Below, one piece after another: positions 15,541-20,507 of a DNA stretch of 35,465 bases. The stretch covers positions 1 through 35,465 of the IMG/VR virus record IMGVR_UViG_3300005578_000207. The stretch is one strand, 5' to 3'. Position numbers and translations under genes: made by a program. The first letter of the stretch is position 1, and each line of letters begins with the position of its first letter. The DNA is from a virus. Under the pieces are notes generated by a model. It saw only the letters and a program-made list of their open reading frames with translations. It was not told the DNA's origin and ran no database searches.

Positions 15541-17583
15541 TCAACTTGCTATGTCGATCACAGCGGTGGGCCGCTGCGCTTCGGTGATGTTCTTCATCGT
15601 TTTCGACTGCAGCTCACCAACCTGGGCGCGCGTCTTCGCGATGTCCGCCATCTGCTTGAGCTGGTCGAGGAAAGAGGGTTGTTCAGGTGCCGGGGCCGGC
15701 GTGGTCTGCTGCGCTGGCATGTCGTTGGCGGCCAAGTTGATCTCGCGCACGGCCTGCGCTTTCGCATGCGCGGCGCGCGCGCTCGATTCCTCTGCCTGCG
15801 CATTCGTCTTGGCGACGTTCGCCTGCGCTTGGGCCTGCTGCATCTGCTGCGCGCCTTGCTGTGCCTGTGCCTGCGATTGCTTGGCCTGCTCCATGAGCGA
15901 CAGGAGCCGGTCCTTGTTGCGCAGGCTTGATGCCTCGATAAGCACCTCGGGCGGGAACGGAATGCCCGAGCTGGCGAGCTGCGTCAGCATCTGGAACTGC
16001 TCGGCCTGGATGTTTGCCACGTCCGGGCCTTCCTCGATCGTGATGTCCACATCGAGCCCGGTGATGTCGTTGTCGCGGCGCACCACCGTATCTAGGCGCG
16101 GGTCATTCGGCTGCAGTTGCAGGCTTTGAGCGATCTGTTGGGCCTGCGCGGGGTCCATCATCGAAAGCTCGTCGGCGAGGGTGATCGGCTGATTGAGTCC
16201 GACCCAGCGCAGGTTCTTTTCGTCGTCAGTGACGCGAATCCATGTCGGCCCCGTCCAGAACTGACGAATGCGGCACCACGCGGCCTCCATGATTTGCTGC
16301 GTCCACTGGCGCAGGTCATCAACGATCGGCTCGACCTCGATCGCGCCGCCGGCCTGCTGCGCTTGAATGGCGCGGCCAGATTGAATGCGCGGATCTTTGC
16401 CAGCCATTGCGGCGTTCGGGCCACTGGCCTGCATCTCGCCCGTGGCGTGTTGCAGCAGTTCGAATTGCGCCTGTGCCATGTCGCCCGTAGGCAGCACGCC
16501 GAAATCCTGGTTCAGCACACCGCCGGCCTCAACCTCAAGGTGGCCGTCAGGCTTGGCCAGCTCGCGCTTGGCCTTGTCAACATCGGGCACGGCCTGGCGA
16601 TTGCCGAACGTCTGGCGCGTGCTGAGTAGATGCAGCGCCTTGCTGCGGCGCTTGTTGATCTCGTCCTGCAGGCTGATTTGATCGCGCACGTGCCCATAGC
16701 GCTGGTTCTCACGGTCGACGTAGGCCGAACGCATGATCAGCGAGCAGGAAGGCGTCCCGTAGGCGTCGGTGTACGGCGACGGCATCGGATCATCCAGATA
16801 GCCGCCCTTGGTGAACGTTGCCATCCACCATTGACCGTCCTGCAGCCAGTGCATTTGCACGATGCGCACGCGCGTACGGCGGTTATCTGCCCAGCGCGTG
16901 AACTTCGGCCGATCGTCGTAGGTGTCCGACATCGAAACGCTGTTGAGCGTGTATTCGATCGCGTCACGACGGTCCGGATATGCCTCCAGCGCTTGATCGC
17001 GGTCTTCCCAGATCACGATGCCCTTGTATCGGGCGTCGCTGAAATCCTTGGCGCGGCTGTAGGCGTCGTAGAAAAGGCGATCCCATGGAACGCGTGTGAT
17101 CTTGACGCGGTATTCGCCGTGCGCATCAGGCTCGACCGTGACATCGGCGCCGCCGGTGCCCTCGATCATCATTTCCTCGAAGACGTCCGAGCGCGTCACG
17201 TCGAAGCGGTTCTGGTCAGCCACGAAGCGCAGCGCATCGGTGGCGGCCTCGCTCATCTGCTCATGCTGTGGCGTGCGCGGGAACGCCTTCGGATCGCTGC
17301 GCAGGCGACGTTCGAAGCCGCGCAGGTACTCGACCTTGCGCTTGATGTAGTTGATCGTGAGCGCCGGCTGTCCGCGCTTGGCCAGAATCGCCAGCTCGGC
17401 CGGCGTCCATTGCTTAGCGTCGTAGTAATCGCGGTCGCGTTCGGCCAGGTGGCGCGCGTCCCACGTCATCTGTTCCGATTCCTCGAACCAGCGCACGAGC
17501 TGCGTCACGTTCGGCGCCTGATAGCCGATGTCGTCGCCCAGCGGTGCGTCCGGCTGGTTGTCGGCGCGCGGAGGGGTATTCAT
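15541..17583 (-). CDS. Portal protein, P22 type
   Basis: 680 residues from the ATG at 17583, overlapping the terminase stop (ATGA). The start (FEESEQMTWDARHLAERDRD, then YYDAKQWTP and GQPALTINYIKRKVEYLRG) is typical of P22-type portals. The middle (DQISLQDEINKRRSKALHLL) and the GPNAAMAGKDPRIQSGRAIQ stretch carry the clip and wing region motifs. The C-terminal ~150 residues are a Gln/Ala-rich helix like the barrel of P22 gp1. The dodecameric portal is the DNA entry ring and attaches the tail. It follows terminase and precedes scaffold. Confidence 0.9.
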   Translation of the reverse strand: MNTPPRADNQPDAPLGDDIGYQAPNVTQLVRWFEESEQMTWDARHLAERDRDYYDAKQWTPAELAILAKRGQPALTINYIKRKVEYLRGFERRLRSDPKAFPRTPQHEQMSEAATDALRFVADQNRFDVTRSDVFEEMMIEGTGGADVTVEPDAHGEYRVKITRVPWDRLFYDAYSRAKDFSDARYKGIVIWEDRDQALEAYPDRRDAIEYTLNSVSMSDTYDDRPKFTRWADNRRTRVRIVQMHWLQDGQWWMATFTKGGYLDDPMPSPYTDAYGTPSCSLIMRSAYVDRENQRYGHVRDQISLQDEINKRRSKALHLLSTRQTFGNRQAVPDVDKAKRELAKPDGHLEVEAGGVLNQDFGVLPTGDMAQAQFELLQHATGEMQASGPNAAMAGKDPRIQSGRAIQAQQAGGAIEVEPIVDDLRQWTQQIMEAAWCRIRQFWTGPTWIRVTDDEKNLRWVGLNQPITLADELSMMDPAQAQQIAQSLQLQPNDPRLDTVVRRDNDITGLDVDITIEEGPDVANIQAEQFQMLTQLASSGIPFPPEVLIEASSLRNKDRLLSLMEQAKQSQAQAQQGAQQMQQAQAQANVAKTNAQAEESSARAAHAKAQAVREINLAANDMPAQQTTPAPAPEQPSFLDQLKQMADIAKTRAQVGELQSKTMKNITEAQRPTAVIDIAS

Positions 17584-19169
17584 GCCACTTTCCACGATCC
17601 CTCCGCTTCACGATCGGTATTGCCAAATGCGCGATCCCACGAATCGACCTCGCGCGGGGGTGCTTCAACGACGGGAACGATGGCGGGATGAGCATCGGCC
17701 AGCGCGCGCCCGATCAGGCTGCCGGCGTCGACTTCATCGTCATGACGGCCAGTCGGGAACTGCACGTATTGCTCGATCACGTCGTCGCCTTCCGGGCCTT
17801 CCGGAATCCAGACGCAGCCGGACGCGGCCATGCCCTGGAACGCTTGGGCCTTGACCTGCTTGTTGCTGCCGTGGGGGGTAATAGGTTCGACGCGGACGAA
17901 CTGCTTCTCGGCACGCATCTGCTGCGTAATGAAGCCGGCGGATGCCTTCCAGTTGTTGTCGTCTTCTGGGAACCACGCGAGCGGGCGGTGCCGTGCAATC
18001 AAGCCCACCTGACCCCGCTCGCGCTTCCCAATCACGCGCTCGGCCAGCTTGTCCATCGTCATGTGCTCACGGAAGCCGTCGAGCAGATAGACGTCGTTGT
18101 TGGCCGCCACGCCCCAGACGCGCACGCATGCGAAGTCGTTGCCATCGCCGCCGGCTGGCGCGTGGTCGCTGGTCATGTACTTGTTGAGGTGACGCGGCTC
18201 ATCGCCCTTGCGATAGCGGCGGAACCACACGCGCTGAAAGTAGGTGCCCTCATCGGGCGTCGGCTTTTGCTGGTACAGCGAGAACCACGTGCGGCGGTTC
18301 TTTTGGAAGGGCTTCCAGTGGTCGAGGCTGAACCACTCGGGCCACAGCGATTCGCCGATCTTGCGGCCCAGCGGATCGTCCAGGCGGTCAGCGATGGCCG
18401 GCAGGCAGATCACGTGCCACACGCGGCCATCGCGCCCGTTAAACACGCCGGATTCGCCGTCCCAGTCTTCTGGCAGGATGCGGCCGGCCAAGTCGTCCTG
18501 GTGCCACCGCGTCTGAATCAGTATCTGCGGCGCGCCCGGGATGAGACGCGAGCAGAAGTCATCGATGTACGCGTCCCAGGTCTTTTTGCGGATGGTCTCG
18601 GATTCGGCCTGTTCGCGGCCCTTGATCGGGTCATCGATGATGCCCAGCGATGAACGGTTACCTGTCAGGCCAGACAGCAGGCCGCCGGCCATGTACTCGC
18701 TGCCGTTGGAAAGCGTCCAGTTGTGCGCGGCGGCGCTGTCGCCGGTCAGCGTCAGGCCGGTCAGGCGGTGAAATGACGGTGACTTGATGAGCTGGCGCGC
18801 GCGGCGCCCTTGCTTCTCAGCGATCTCGCTGGCGTAGCTGGCGAGGATGACGTTGCGCCGCGGTGCGCGCGCCATGAACCACGGCACGAACACAACATCG
18901 CTGTAGGTCGATTTGGCGCTGCCCGGCGGCATCAGCACCATGAGATTGGGCACCGTGCCGGCCTCGACGCCCTGAAGCTGGCGAAGCAGCAGCGCATGAT
19001 GCGCGGCCATCTTGCCGATGCGCATCATCGTGAACTGGTCTTCGTCGATCGCGTCCGTGAGCGGCACGGTCGGGATGTCCACCATGCAAGCGAAGTCGAT
19101 CAGGCTGCGGCGCGCGAGTTCTCGGCGGGCGGCCAGCACGTCTTGGATGGTGAAGTCGGGCGCGCCCAT
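17580..19169 (-). CDS. terL: Terminase large subunit
   Basis: 529 residues. The ATPase half has a Walker A PPGSAKST at 81-88, a Walker B LGIIDD (Asp179-Asp180) and a coupling-type QTRWHQDD segment (219-226). The nuclease half has the RNase H-like acidic cluster: SDHA (Asp335), Asp345 and HDDEVDA (476-482). It cuts concatemeric DNA and drives it into the head through the portal. The start ATG shares one base with the small-subunit stop (TAATG), and its own stop overlaps the portal start. Headful packaging is plausible given the P22-like portal but is not shown by sequence. Confidence 0.95.
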   Translation of the reverse strand: MGAPDFTIQDVLAARRELARRSLIDFACMVDIPTVPLTDAIDEDQFTMMRIGKMAAHHALLLRQLQGVEAGTVPNLMVLMPPGSAKSTYSDVVFVPWFMARAPRRNVILASYASEIAEKQGRRARQLIKSPSFHRLTGLTLTGDSAAAHNWTLSNGSEYMAGGLLSGLTGNRSSLGIIDDPIKGREQAESETIRKKTWDAYIDDFCSRLIPGAPQILIQTRWHQDDLAGRILPEDWDGESGVFNGRDGRVWHVICLPAIADRLDDPLGRKIGESLWPEWFSLDHWKPFQKNRRTWFSLYQQKPTPDEGTYFQRVWFRRYRKGDEPRHLNKYMTSDHAPAGGDGNDFACVRVWGVAANNDVYLLDGFREHMTMDKLAERVIGKRERGQVGLIARHRPLAWFPEDDNNWKASAGFITQQMRAEKQFVRVEPITPHGSNKQVKAQAFQGMAASGCVWIPEGPEGDDVIEQYVQFPTGRHDDEVDAGSLIGRALADAHPAIVPVVEAPPREVDSWDRAFGNTDREAEGSWKVA

Positions 19170-19585
19170 TACTTGCTCTCGACGACGCGCACAGATGCCA
19201 GCGCGCGCAGCTGCTCTTCGGTGAGCGCGGTGACATCCAGCTTCTGTTCGTGCTGAATCGGGCCGCCCTTGGCGCCTGTGTGCTCAAGCGCAACGCGGTC
19301 GCGCCACTGCTCCGGCTGCCGGTTCTTGAGCCAGTAGATGCAGGCGGTAACGTCGCCGCCCTTGGCCTTCTCGTAGAGCGCGCTGACGACTTCGGAATCG
19401 GCCTTGAGCTTGCCGGCCTTGCACGACTCGGCGAACGCCTCGTGCTTGTGCTTCCAATTGCGTAGCGTGCGGTCGGTGACGCCGAAGAAGGCCGCAATCA
19501 CGTCGTCGGTCGCGCCCAGCAGGCACAGCTTCTTGGCCTGCTCGGCGTACTCGGCTCGATACGACGTTTCGCTGCCTCGCGGCAT
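19169..19585 (-). CDS. terS: Terminase small subunit
   Basis: 138 residues from the ATG at 19585, with GGGG five bases upstream; a GTG two codons earlier is possible. Residues ~20-50 contain a helix-turn-helix (DDVIAAFFGVTDRTLRNWKH) used for recognising the packaging site, followed by helices (LKADSEVVSALYEKAKGGDV) for oligomer formation and a C-terminal ALTEEQLRALASVRVVESK likely to contact the large subunit. It is the first gene of the late operon and lies downstream of a terminator and a ribozyme, so its expression probably requires read-through. Confidence 0.85.
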   Translation of the reverse strand: MPRGSETSYRAEYAEQAKKLCLLGATDDVIAAFFGVTDRTLRNWKHKHEAFAESCKAGKLKADSEVVSALYEKAKGGDVTACIYWLKNRQPEQWRDRVALEHTGAKGGPIQHEQKLDVTALTEEQLRALASVRVVESK

Positions 19586-19681
19586 GATCACCCCAGTGCT
19601 TTATAACTGGAAGTGATTATTCGTCCTTGGCTTAGACGAGATTTTGTCTAATTCGGCGGGGAATGGTGCGCGATGGGCAAC

Positions 19682-19705
19682 AAAAAACCCGCCGAAGCGG
19701 GTTTT
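19682..19705 (-). terminator. Intrinsic terminator before terminase genes
   Basis: On the minus strand AAAACCCGC-TTCG-GCGGGTTTT forms a 9-bp stem with a UUCG loop, and the T run is six T in total. It lies 97 bases upstream of the terminase small-subunit ATG and about 74 nt downstream of the ribozyme cleavage point. On the plus strand the T run is only four, so it works mainly leftward. By lambda analogy it is in the tR' position, where a Q-type antiterminator would be needed for late expression. Confidence 0.85.
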
Positions 19706-19758
19706 GAGGGACCGGCGCTGATCTCCGGCATCGATGCTCGGCTCACTCTCCCACCACA

Positions 19759-19831
19759 CTGATCCTTGGGAGACTACGCAACCCTTGCGGGTTTCGGCCT
19801 TATGGCCTCATCAGGCGTAGAAATGGATCAG
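19759..19831 (-). ncRNA. Hammerhead self-cleaving ribozyme, type I
   Basis: Reading the minus strand from 19831: outer stem I CTGATCC, internal loop ATTT, inner stem I CTACGC, core CTGATGA (19814-19808), stem II GGCC with loop ATAA and GGCC, core GAAA (19795-19792), stem III CCC with a GCAA tetraloop and GGG, then TT, inner stem I GCGTAG, internal loop TCTCCCAA and outer stem I GGATCAG (ends 19759). Both stem I parts pair perfectly (6 and 7 bp). A15.1 pairs with U16.1, stem II begins with the conserved G-C pair, and the cleavage triplet is GUU, an allowed NUH, so cleavage is predicted between 19780 and 19779. The stem I internal loop can contact loop II. Stem I is the open helix, hence type I. 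It lies in the leader between the early genes and the late terminator. Confidence 0.9.
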
Positions 19832-19897
19832 CTTGGACGCCTACTTGCCGAGCGTTGGCGTCGTATGCTCTTGCGCATCAGCCTGCGCATTCCCTCA

Positions 19898-19927
19898 AGT
19901 AAAGTGCCAATTCTTTTTATTGTTCAA
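19898..19927 (-). promoter_or_regulatory. Weak candidate late promoter
   Basis: On the minus strand TTGAAC (19927-19922), an 18-bp spacer and TTTACT (19903-19898) give a 4/6 and 4/6 sigma-70 match, with a start point near 19891, about 60 nt upstream of the ribozyme. It is proposed mainly because lambda-like phages have a late promoter here. Transcription could instead come from the replication operon. Confidence 0.3.
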
Positions 19928-19932
19928 TGGAT

Positions 19933-20244
19933 CTACATTCGTTTGCCGATCTCAGCGGCTGCCAAAACGATAGCACGCCTGGTGGCTCCATCAATTTCAC
20001 CTTCATCGCACTTGACCATGCCAAGGCGCGTTTCTGCGATGGCAGAAAGCAGCCCGACTGTCACGCTCATCTGCAGCTTCACCGCCAGCCGCAGCGCGTC
20101 GCCATCGTCAGTGAGCGGGTTCCACGTCATACGATTGCCGCCACCATAGAACTCCAGCCCAAAATCTCCCTGACGTACAGCACCATATCCAGGATCGATT
20201 GCCGCCGCCTTGGCCGCCAGTTCCAACAGTTCTCGGTTGTCCAC
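19933..20244 (-). CDS. Small phage protein of the nin-like region
   Basis: 103 residues from a GTG at 20244 preceded by AGGAG; the frame continues 33 codons upstream into the previous gene without a better start. The visible pattern is NRELLELAAKAA at the start, MTWNPLTDDGDALRLAVKLQ in the middle and GATRRAIVLAAAEIGKRM at the end. I recall many phage proteins with this WNPLTDDGDALRLA core and the ATRRAIV.AAA.IG ending, all of unknown function. It is the last gene before the ribozyme and terminator. Confidence 0.65.
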   Translation of the reverse strand: MDNRELLELAAKAAAIDPGYGAVRQGDFGLEFYGGGNRMTWNPLTDDGDALRLAVKLQMSVTVGLLSAIAETRLGMVKCDEGEIDGATRRAIVLAAAEIGKRM

Positions 20245-20252
20245 GTTCTCTC

Positions 20253-20507
20253 CTATCGCACAGTGATCGGATGATACCGCGCAGTAATCGGCGCCTCTGC
20301 GCCTGACAGCCCGGTCTTGGCCGACCAATGCGCCAACAGGCACATGCCCACGGCATGCGTCGGCTCGACGCCGTTCTTATAGGACTGCAGGGATGTGCGC
20401 GGGATGGATGTCACTGCGGCCAATTTATACAGGGAGCCACCATCGCTACATAAATCGGTCAGCACGCGGAACCAGTCGATGCGCACAGTGAGCGATGGCG
20501 CTTGCAT
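20253..20507 (-). CDS. Small HTH-like protein, possible late regulator
   Basis: 84 residues from the ATG at 20507 with GAGG six bases upstream; a longer frame to 20549 overlaps the previous gene and is rejected. The segment GSLYKLAAVTSIPRTSLQSY followed by KNGVEPTHAVGMCLLAHWSA reads as a helix-turn-helix of the Cro/CI type. Its place near the end of the delayed-early genes, just before the late terminator, is where lambda carries the antiterminator Q. A regulatory role is inferred only from that and the HTH. Confidence 0.55.
   Translation of the reverse strand: MQAPSLTVRIDWFRVLTDLCSDGGSLYKLAAVTSIPRTSLQSYKNGVEPTHAVGMCLLAHWSAKTGLSGAEAPITARYHPITVR

Follow-up and report, generated by a model that had tools for sequence, protein, structure and literature searches.

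A putative type I hammerhead ribozyme built into a conserved double-pseudoknot RNA of phage leader regions

Hammerhead ribozymes are documented in phages and prophages, and 14 of 18 tested consensus hammerheads were active (PMC3088659). A candidate lies on the minus strand of IMG/VR virus record IMGVR_UViG_3300005578_000207 (35,465 nucleotides, the whole of which is called the window here), where an initial annotation had described a hammerhead at positions 19759-19831 in the late-leader region. This locus raises the questions of whether the element is a ribozyme, what surrounds it, and what role it could have between the early and the late genes (table 1).

The catalytic core was found to be complete: C3, U4, G5, A6, N7, G8, A9, G12, A13, A14, the A15.1-U16.1 pair, and H17 are all present, and the minimum-energy fold includes the hammerhead stems (z score -4.4; 0 of 200 shuffled sequences were equally stable). 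A hammerhead descriptor identified a single site in the whole window, with 0.0035 sites per window expected by chance at loose thresholds, and no site equalling the window hammerhead was obtained in 20 Mb of random sequence. Moreover, stems I, II, and III each showed changes on both sides across 21 hammerhead-bearing members of the RNA family described below. We concluded that the window element is, as judged from its sequence, a genuine type I hammerhead for which self-cleavage is predicted. The core check, the descriptor, and the fold stability confirmed the full minus-strand core of the initial annotation, and the core together with U19780 as H17 predicts the cleavage position that it had named, between 19780 and 19779. 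The two-part stem I with a bulge that it had also proposed held in part: the inner pairing is stem I of the ribozyme, but the outer pairing is helix P2 of a surrounding framework and is not ribozyme-specific, because three hammerhead-less relatives have it too. Non-circularly permuted hammerheads (PMC10085705) were considered as well; the window ribozyme has the ordinary type I order.

An Rfam search of the window returned no family at the gathering score. A strong minus-strand match had been expected; the best one, Hammerhead_HH9 (RF02275), gave a full-length alignment of 28.2 bits (E = 3.7e-5), below its gathering threshold of 52, which is a curation threshold and not a biochemical feature. 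The hammerhead pair 10.1-11.1, the first of stem II, was neither Watson-Crick nor wobble (C-A, U-U, or A-A) in 10 of the 21 members, and strict hammerhead filters would therefore drop these members. The catalytic core is of a known kind, and phage hammerheads, including one at the head of a transcript, were already known (PMC3088659). Neither the framework nor the A-B cassette around it reached the gathering score of any Rfam 15 family. The literature searched, which did not extend to the 2017 survey of 224 RNAs (presumably the source of Proteo-phage-1), likewise contained neither the ribozyme-bearing framework nor the cassette that encloses it, and it gave no link of a hammerhead to antitermination or to terminase.

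Table 1. Features of the hammerhead RNA, its surrounding RNAs, and the adjacent genes in the window
Feature	Position	Strand	Details
Type I hammerhead with framework helix P2 around it	19759..19831	-	Predicted cleavage between 19780 and 19779
Hammerhead proper	19774..19820	-	Stems I-III covary in 21 members
Hammerhead stem I	19820-19815 / 19779-19774	-	CUACGC/GCGUAG
Hammerhead core CUGAUGA	19814-19808	-	
Hammerhead stem II	19807-19796	-	GGCC-AUAA-GGCC
Hammerhead core GAAA	19795-19792	-	
Hammerhead stem III	19792-19781	-	ACCC-GCAA-GGGU; its first A is the last A of GAAA
Hammerhead H17 (U)	19780	-	
Double-pseudoknot framework RNA	19735..19871	-	Leave-one-out model and covariation
Framework P1	19862-19857 / 19841-19836	-	GANNCC/GGNNUC
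Framework PK1	19853-19847 / 19742-19736	-	P1 loop pairs with RNA 3' end, 7 bp
Framework P2	19831-19825 / 19765-19759	-	CUGAUCC/GGAUCAG
Framework P4	19773-19768 / 19752-19747	-	
A-B cassette	19704..19898	-	Insert is framework plus hammerhead
Cassette outer stem	19898-19891 / 19711-19704	-	UUGAGGGA/UCCCUCAA
Cassette hairpin A	19889-19872	-	GAAUGCGCAGGCUGAUGCGC
Cassette hairpin B	19728-19712	-	AUGCCGGAGAUCAGCGCCGG
Cassette loops able to kiss	19882-19877 / 19722-19717	-	GCUGAU/AUCAGC
Intrinsic terminator directly after cassette	19679..19705	-	AAAACCCGC-UUCG-GCGGGUUUU-UU
Terminase small subunit (phrog_309)	19169..19591	-	First late gene past terminator
Terminase large subunit (phrog_38)	17580..19169	-	
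Last gene before RNA (phrog_5086)	19933..20343	-	No Pfam match

When phages were searched by blastn with the 346 surrounding bases, those of Klebsiella and Escherichia showed matches that were intergenic and fell well outside the hammerhead. Two scans of viral contigs and several phage searches recovered a double-pseudoknot framework shared by many unrelated phages; its members number at least 27 distinct sequences and come from phages of Klebsiella, Escherichia, Pseudomonas, and Acinetobacter and from metagenomic phages. P2 and P4 form the second H-type pseudoknot of this framework, and the hammerhead occupies the loop between them; the conserved CGUAG of the framework serves as the 3' side of hammerhead stem I. 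In the window, P1, PK1, P2, and P4 all form, and GUAG and GUGAG flank P4. The ribozyme of the initial annotation stands, but the element that it had delimited as 19759-19831 is larger: the true element runs from 19871 to 19735, and with the enclosing RNA from 19898 to 19704. The framework occurred in a single copy per phage, and three members (L012, L060, and L067) carried it entire, including CGUAG, without a hammerhead. As the ribozyme is absent from these members, the function of the framework does not need it, and we concluded that the hammerhead is an integral yet dispensable component of a conserved framework. Among about 30 related genomes of N4-like phages, the framework was present in just a few, which indicates that it was gained and lost.

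Matches that lacked the framework helices were judged to be chance; these comprised the pattern matches L016-L033 in genome contigs and 10 matches of the second viral scan. The framework model gave no match in 369 and 391 bacterial genomes, which is weak evidence because few candidates were scored per genome; likewise, no match was obtained in the E. coli genomes searched or in scanned A-B loci without the framework.

The conservation of the framework was addressed by counting covariation in 24 members, with PK1 included and P2 left out. Standard pairs occupied 95.5% of the pair cells (78.5% after shuffling), compensatory cells with both sides changed numbered 115 (30 after shuffling), and both-side changes were observed at 21 pairs; the covariation score was 0.443, compared with 0.152 for the shuffled control and less than 0.08 for every slid version. 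In PK1, all seven pairs showed both-side changes, with 99.4% pairing. P2 measured 6-11 bp in own pairs; a length of 7 bp or more was reached by 91% of these but by 21% of swapped pairs. In addition, a covariance model (R2) built without the window recovered it at 133.3 bits (E = 1.8e-41). The invariance of ACGA, CC, AAGUAGG, and UCC is partly imposed, since the scan patterns demanded these motifs; the patterns placed no constraint on GUAG, GUGAG, or the variable pairs.

In the window, the framework is itself enclosed by an A-B cassette with a covarying outer stem, hairpins A and B, and complementary loops. Scanning viral contigs for hairpin A gave at least 119 stretches, from which at least 108 distinct cassettes were parsed; among these, outer-stem pairs 1-7 formed in 93-98% of cases and included many types of pair, and hairpin B showed paired changes. 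The same cassette frame was found in phages D3, PAJU2, CSP3, PS-1, Aurca01, AP1, and Erwinia phage 59. Among the matches listed, the inserts were hypervariable (27-163 nt) and mostly unrelated to each other, and only the window, among the cassettes parsed from these matches, had the framework as its insert. Three other inserts (L160, L177, and L151) held whole or partial tRNA-like sequence in the variable slot. In L002, L003, and L059, the framework comes after the cassette, and in Pseudomonas phages PAJU2 and phita81A, the cassette and the framework share a site, with the same upstream hairpin and terminator around it.

The window RNA lies on the same strand as the terminase genes, just before a terminator, and replication-type genes precede it; the initial annotation's gene-free stretch and its terminator ahead of terminase were both present. 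A Pfam search of the neighbouring early genes gave no match, and a search around the RNA revealed no sigma-70 promoter. Directly before hairpin A (19909-19892, minus strand), UUGGCAC-UUUAC-UUGAG resembles by eye a sigma-54 -24/-12 promoter with an imperfect -12 part. In relatives, the framework was located between the antiterminator gene Q and holin/endolysin genes in L043, L060, L067, and L068, downstream of Q in L052, before holin in L034, before endolysin in L014/L015, directly before the terminase small subunit in L046, L063, and L071, as in the window, and ahead of tRNAs in L002, L054, and L059. Six of ten sampled cassettes follow Q-like proteins and three a CI-like repressor; one cassette is close to an N gene, and the early leader too, next to CI or N, holds cassettes. 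Both RNA families recur downstream of Q, ahead of terminators and of genes for lysis, terminase, or tRNA; the term late leader is therefore correct, and the position first assigned to the window element agrees with relatives that sit between Q and the lysis genes or before the terminase small subunit.

Other structured RNAs were observed in the same regions. L043, L060, and L068 share a third stretch that is conserved and structured (AGUUGG..CUUCGAC..GUCUGG.ACUCCAACC..GCUGAGAGG); it lies between Q and the framework, just upstream of the latter, and has a match in Erwinia phage phiEt88. In L006 and L007, another structured RNA (GGGGGUAAGUCGUAAC...CGCCCC) lies about 10 nt past the framework; it occurs in most of the related N4-like phages, even framework-less ones. 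The Rfam phage RNAs DUF2815 RNA (RF03084) and Proteo-phage-1 (RF03044) were found near L046, L063, L071, and L075. The hypothetical proteins XKC24230.1, BBK09302.1, and XCH45336.1, annotated over or beside the RNA (at L004:2678-2797, L036:3040-3135, and L035:3031-3327), are probably spurious gene calls.

Taken together, we proposed, with moderate confidence, that three nested modules form the leader, followed by the terminator and the late genes, that the hammerhead nicks the folded RNA, and that the whole has a cis role at the early/late boundary. The outermost module is a clamp made of the outer stem and hairpins A and B, whose loops are able to pair; the middle one is a compact double pseudoknot, with the P1 loop paired to the 3' end and with P2/P4; and the innermost is the type I hammerhead in a loop of the second pseudoknot, borrowing CGUAG for its stem I. 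During transcription, every strand of the hammerhead emerges before the helices P4, P2, and PK1 can be completed, so the ribozyme would fold first and cut between 19780 and 19779. After the cut, the upstream part would end in a 2',3'-cyclic phosphate and the downstream part would start at GCGUAG with a 5'-OH; P2 and PK1 (about 14 pairs) would hold both parts, so that a nicked, folded particle may persist on the nascent late transcript. Cutting may thereby free CGUAG at the 5'-OH end, a state that the hammerhead-less members would reach uncut.

Early and late leader positions, before terminators and untranslated tRNA arrays, are places of antitermination; thus, a cis-acting transcription module was ranked first, ahead of message separation and a trans-acting RNA, although this ranking is tentative. 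The HK022 put RNA and the Bacillus subtilis EAR RNA are structured leader RNAs that act in cis, in a phage or in long operons, and with them polymerase ignores terminators. Antitermination of this kind, by which polymerase and the late transcript would pass the terminator and the untranslated leader, is the role that we favour, though with reserve. We suggest just as cautiously that phage early and late leaders may hold a slot for interchangeable knotted RNA modules, absent from Rfam, that act on their own transcript, likely by read-through, and that one of these may be a two-piece RNA matured by a built-in hammerhead, a new class of cis-control RNA. Counting against a cis role, relatives that encode Q should need no RNA antiterminator, terminators lie directly upstream of the framework in four members (L012, L052, L060, and L067), no downstream terminator was detected in many members, the RNA of 05F01 (L036) comes after a tRNA cluster, and the next gene in L052 and L012 is on the opposite strand.

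Somewhat unlikely, in our estimate, is an insulator or processing module that marks the boundary between early and late transcripts, or between tRNA precursor and mRNA, where the hammerhead would separate the two and the knotted framework and the 5'-OH end would shield the downstream transcript from end-dependent decay. The RNA does occur at transcript boundaries (Q and lysis, early genes and terminase, tRNA and mRNA), with terminators flanking it on both sides in L060 and L067, and the splitting of long phage transcripts has been proposed as a task of hammerheads found on either side of prophage genes (PMC3088659). However, the three members without a hammerhead keep the framework, and in several members a terminator already separates the messages. 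It is unlikely that the leader up to its terminator is, like lambda 6S RNA, a small RNA, acting in trans (as a decoy, regulator, or anti-defence RNA) with the variable cassette inserts as its changing payloads. A compact RNA in single copy, often ending in an intrinsic terminator, would fit this, as would the hypervariable cassette inserts (27-163 nt, some of them tRNA-like, among the matches listed), and anti-sRNAs encoded by phages are known (PMC4104026); on the other hand, several members have no terminator close by and are located within tRNA arrays or immediately ahead of the start of an mRNA (L046, L063, and L071), and the conservation of the framework is structural, not seed-like.

More doubtful still is that a functional framework merely hosts the hammerhead as a small insert, selfish or neutral, whose cleavage has no role of its own: two of the three members without it share the same Q-lysis context, but the 21 aligned hammerhead members have an intact core and covarying stems I-III, and the insert, where found, is always a hammerhead and never another sequence. 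A chance resemblance without any ribozyme, to which the missed Rfam gathering score could point, is highly improbable, being contradicted by the random-sequence result and by stems I-III, in which diverged phages show compensatory changes.

Whichever form the preferred cis-acting leader module takes, a hammerhead is here tied to a defined conserved fold and to a fixed genomic position, at the early/late switch, in lysis and terminase leaders, and at tRNA arrays. Two RNA families that are widespread in phages but missing from Rfam are brought to light, together with a structured RNA slot in phage leaders that swaps modules. As natural relatives exist that lack only the ribozyme, its function is testable in phages whose hosts are in culture (Pseudomonas, Klebsiella, and Escherichia), by comparing the framework with and without the ribozyme.

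Among known systems, the lambda pR' leader (6S RNA) with tR' lies directly after Q and before the lysis genes, with an intrinsic terminator at its end, and this is the same place as that of the window RNA family; 6S RNA is not known to contain a ribozyme or such pseudoknots. The HK022 put and B. subtilis EAR RNAs are likened to the window RNA by position only. Proteo-phage-1 RNA (RF03044) is also a structured phage leader RNA, lying about 160 nt upstream of the A-B cassette in phage PS-1, but it is a distinct RNA that matches neither the cassette nor the framework. With the type I hammerheads of Rfam (clan CL00010; best match RF02275), the window ribozyme shares the core, the three stems, the stem I opening, and the UH site, whereas it differs in its sub-threshold score and in having its stem I embedded in a double pseudoknot that also occurs ribozyme-free. 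The HHphage hammerhead of haloviruses HF1 and HF2 likewise stands at the head of a phage transcript, whose 5' end maps within 3 nt of the hammerhead site; however, it is a core variant of archaeal viruses, and the parts of the corresponding report covered here describe no comparable framework (PMC3088659). The genomes of PaP3 and Bcep176 gave no match to the framework-family model. Their hammerheads lie in phage intergenic regions, as here, and PaP3, with a tRNA cluster before terminase, offers a similar setting (PMC3088659).
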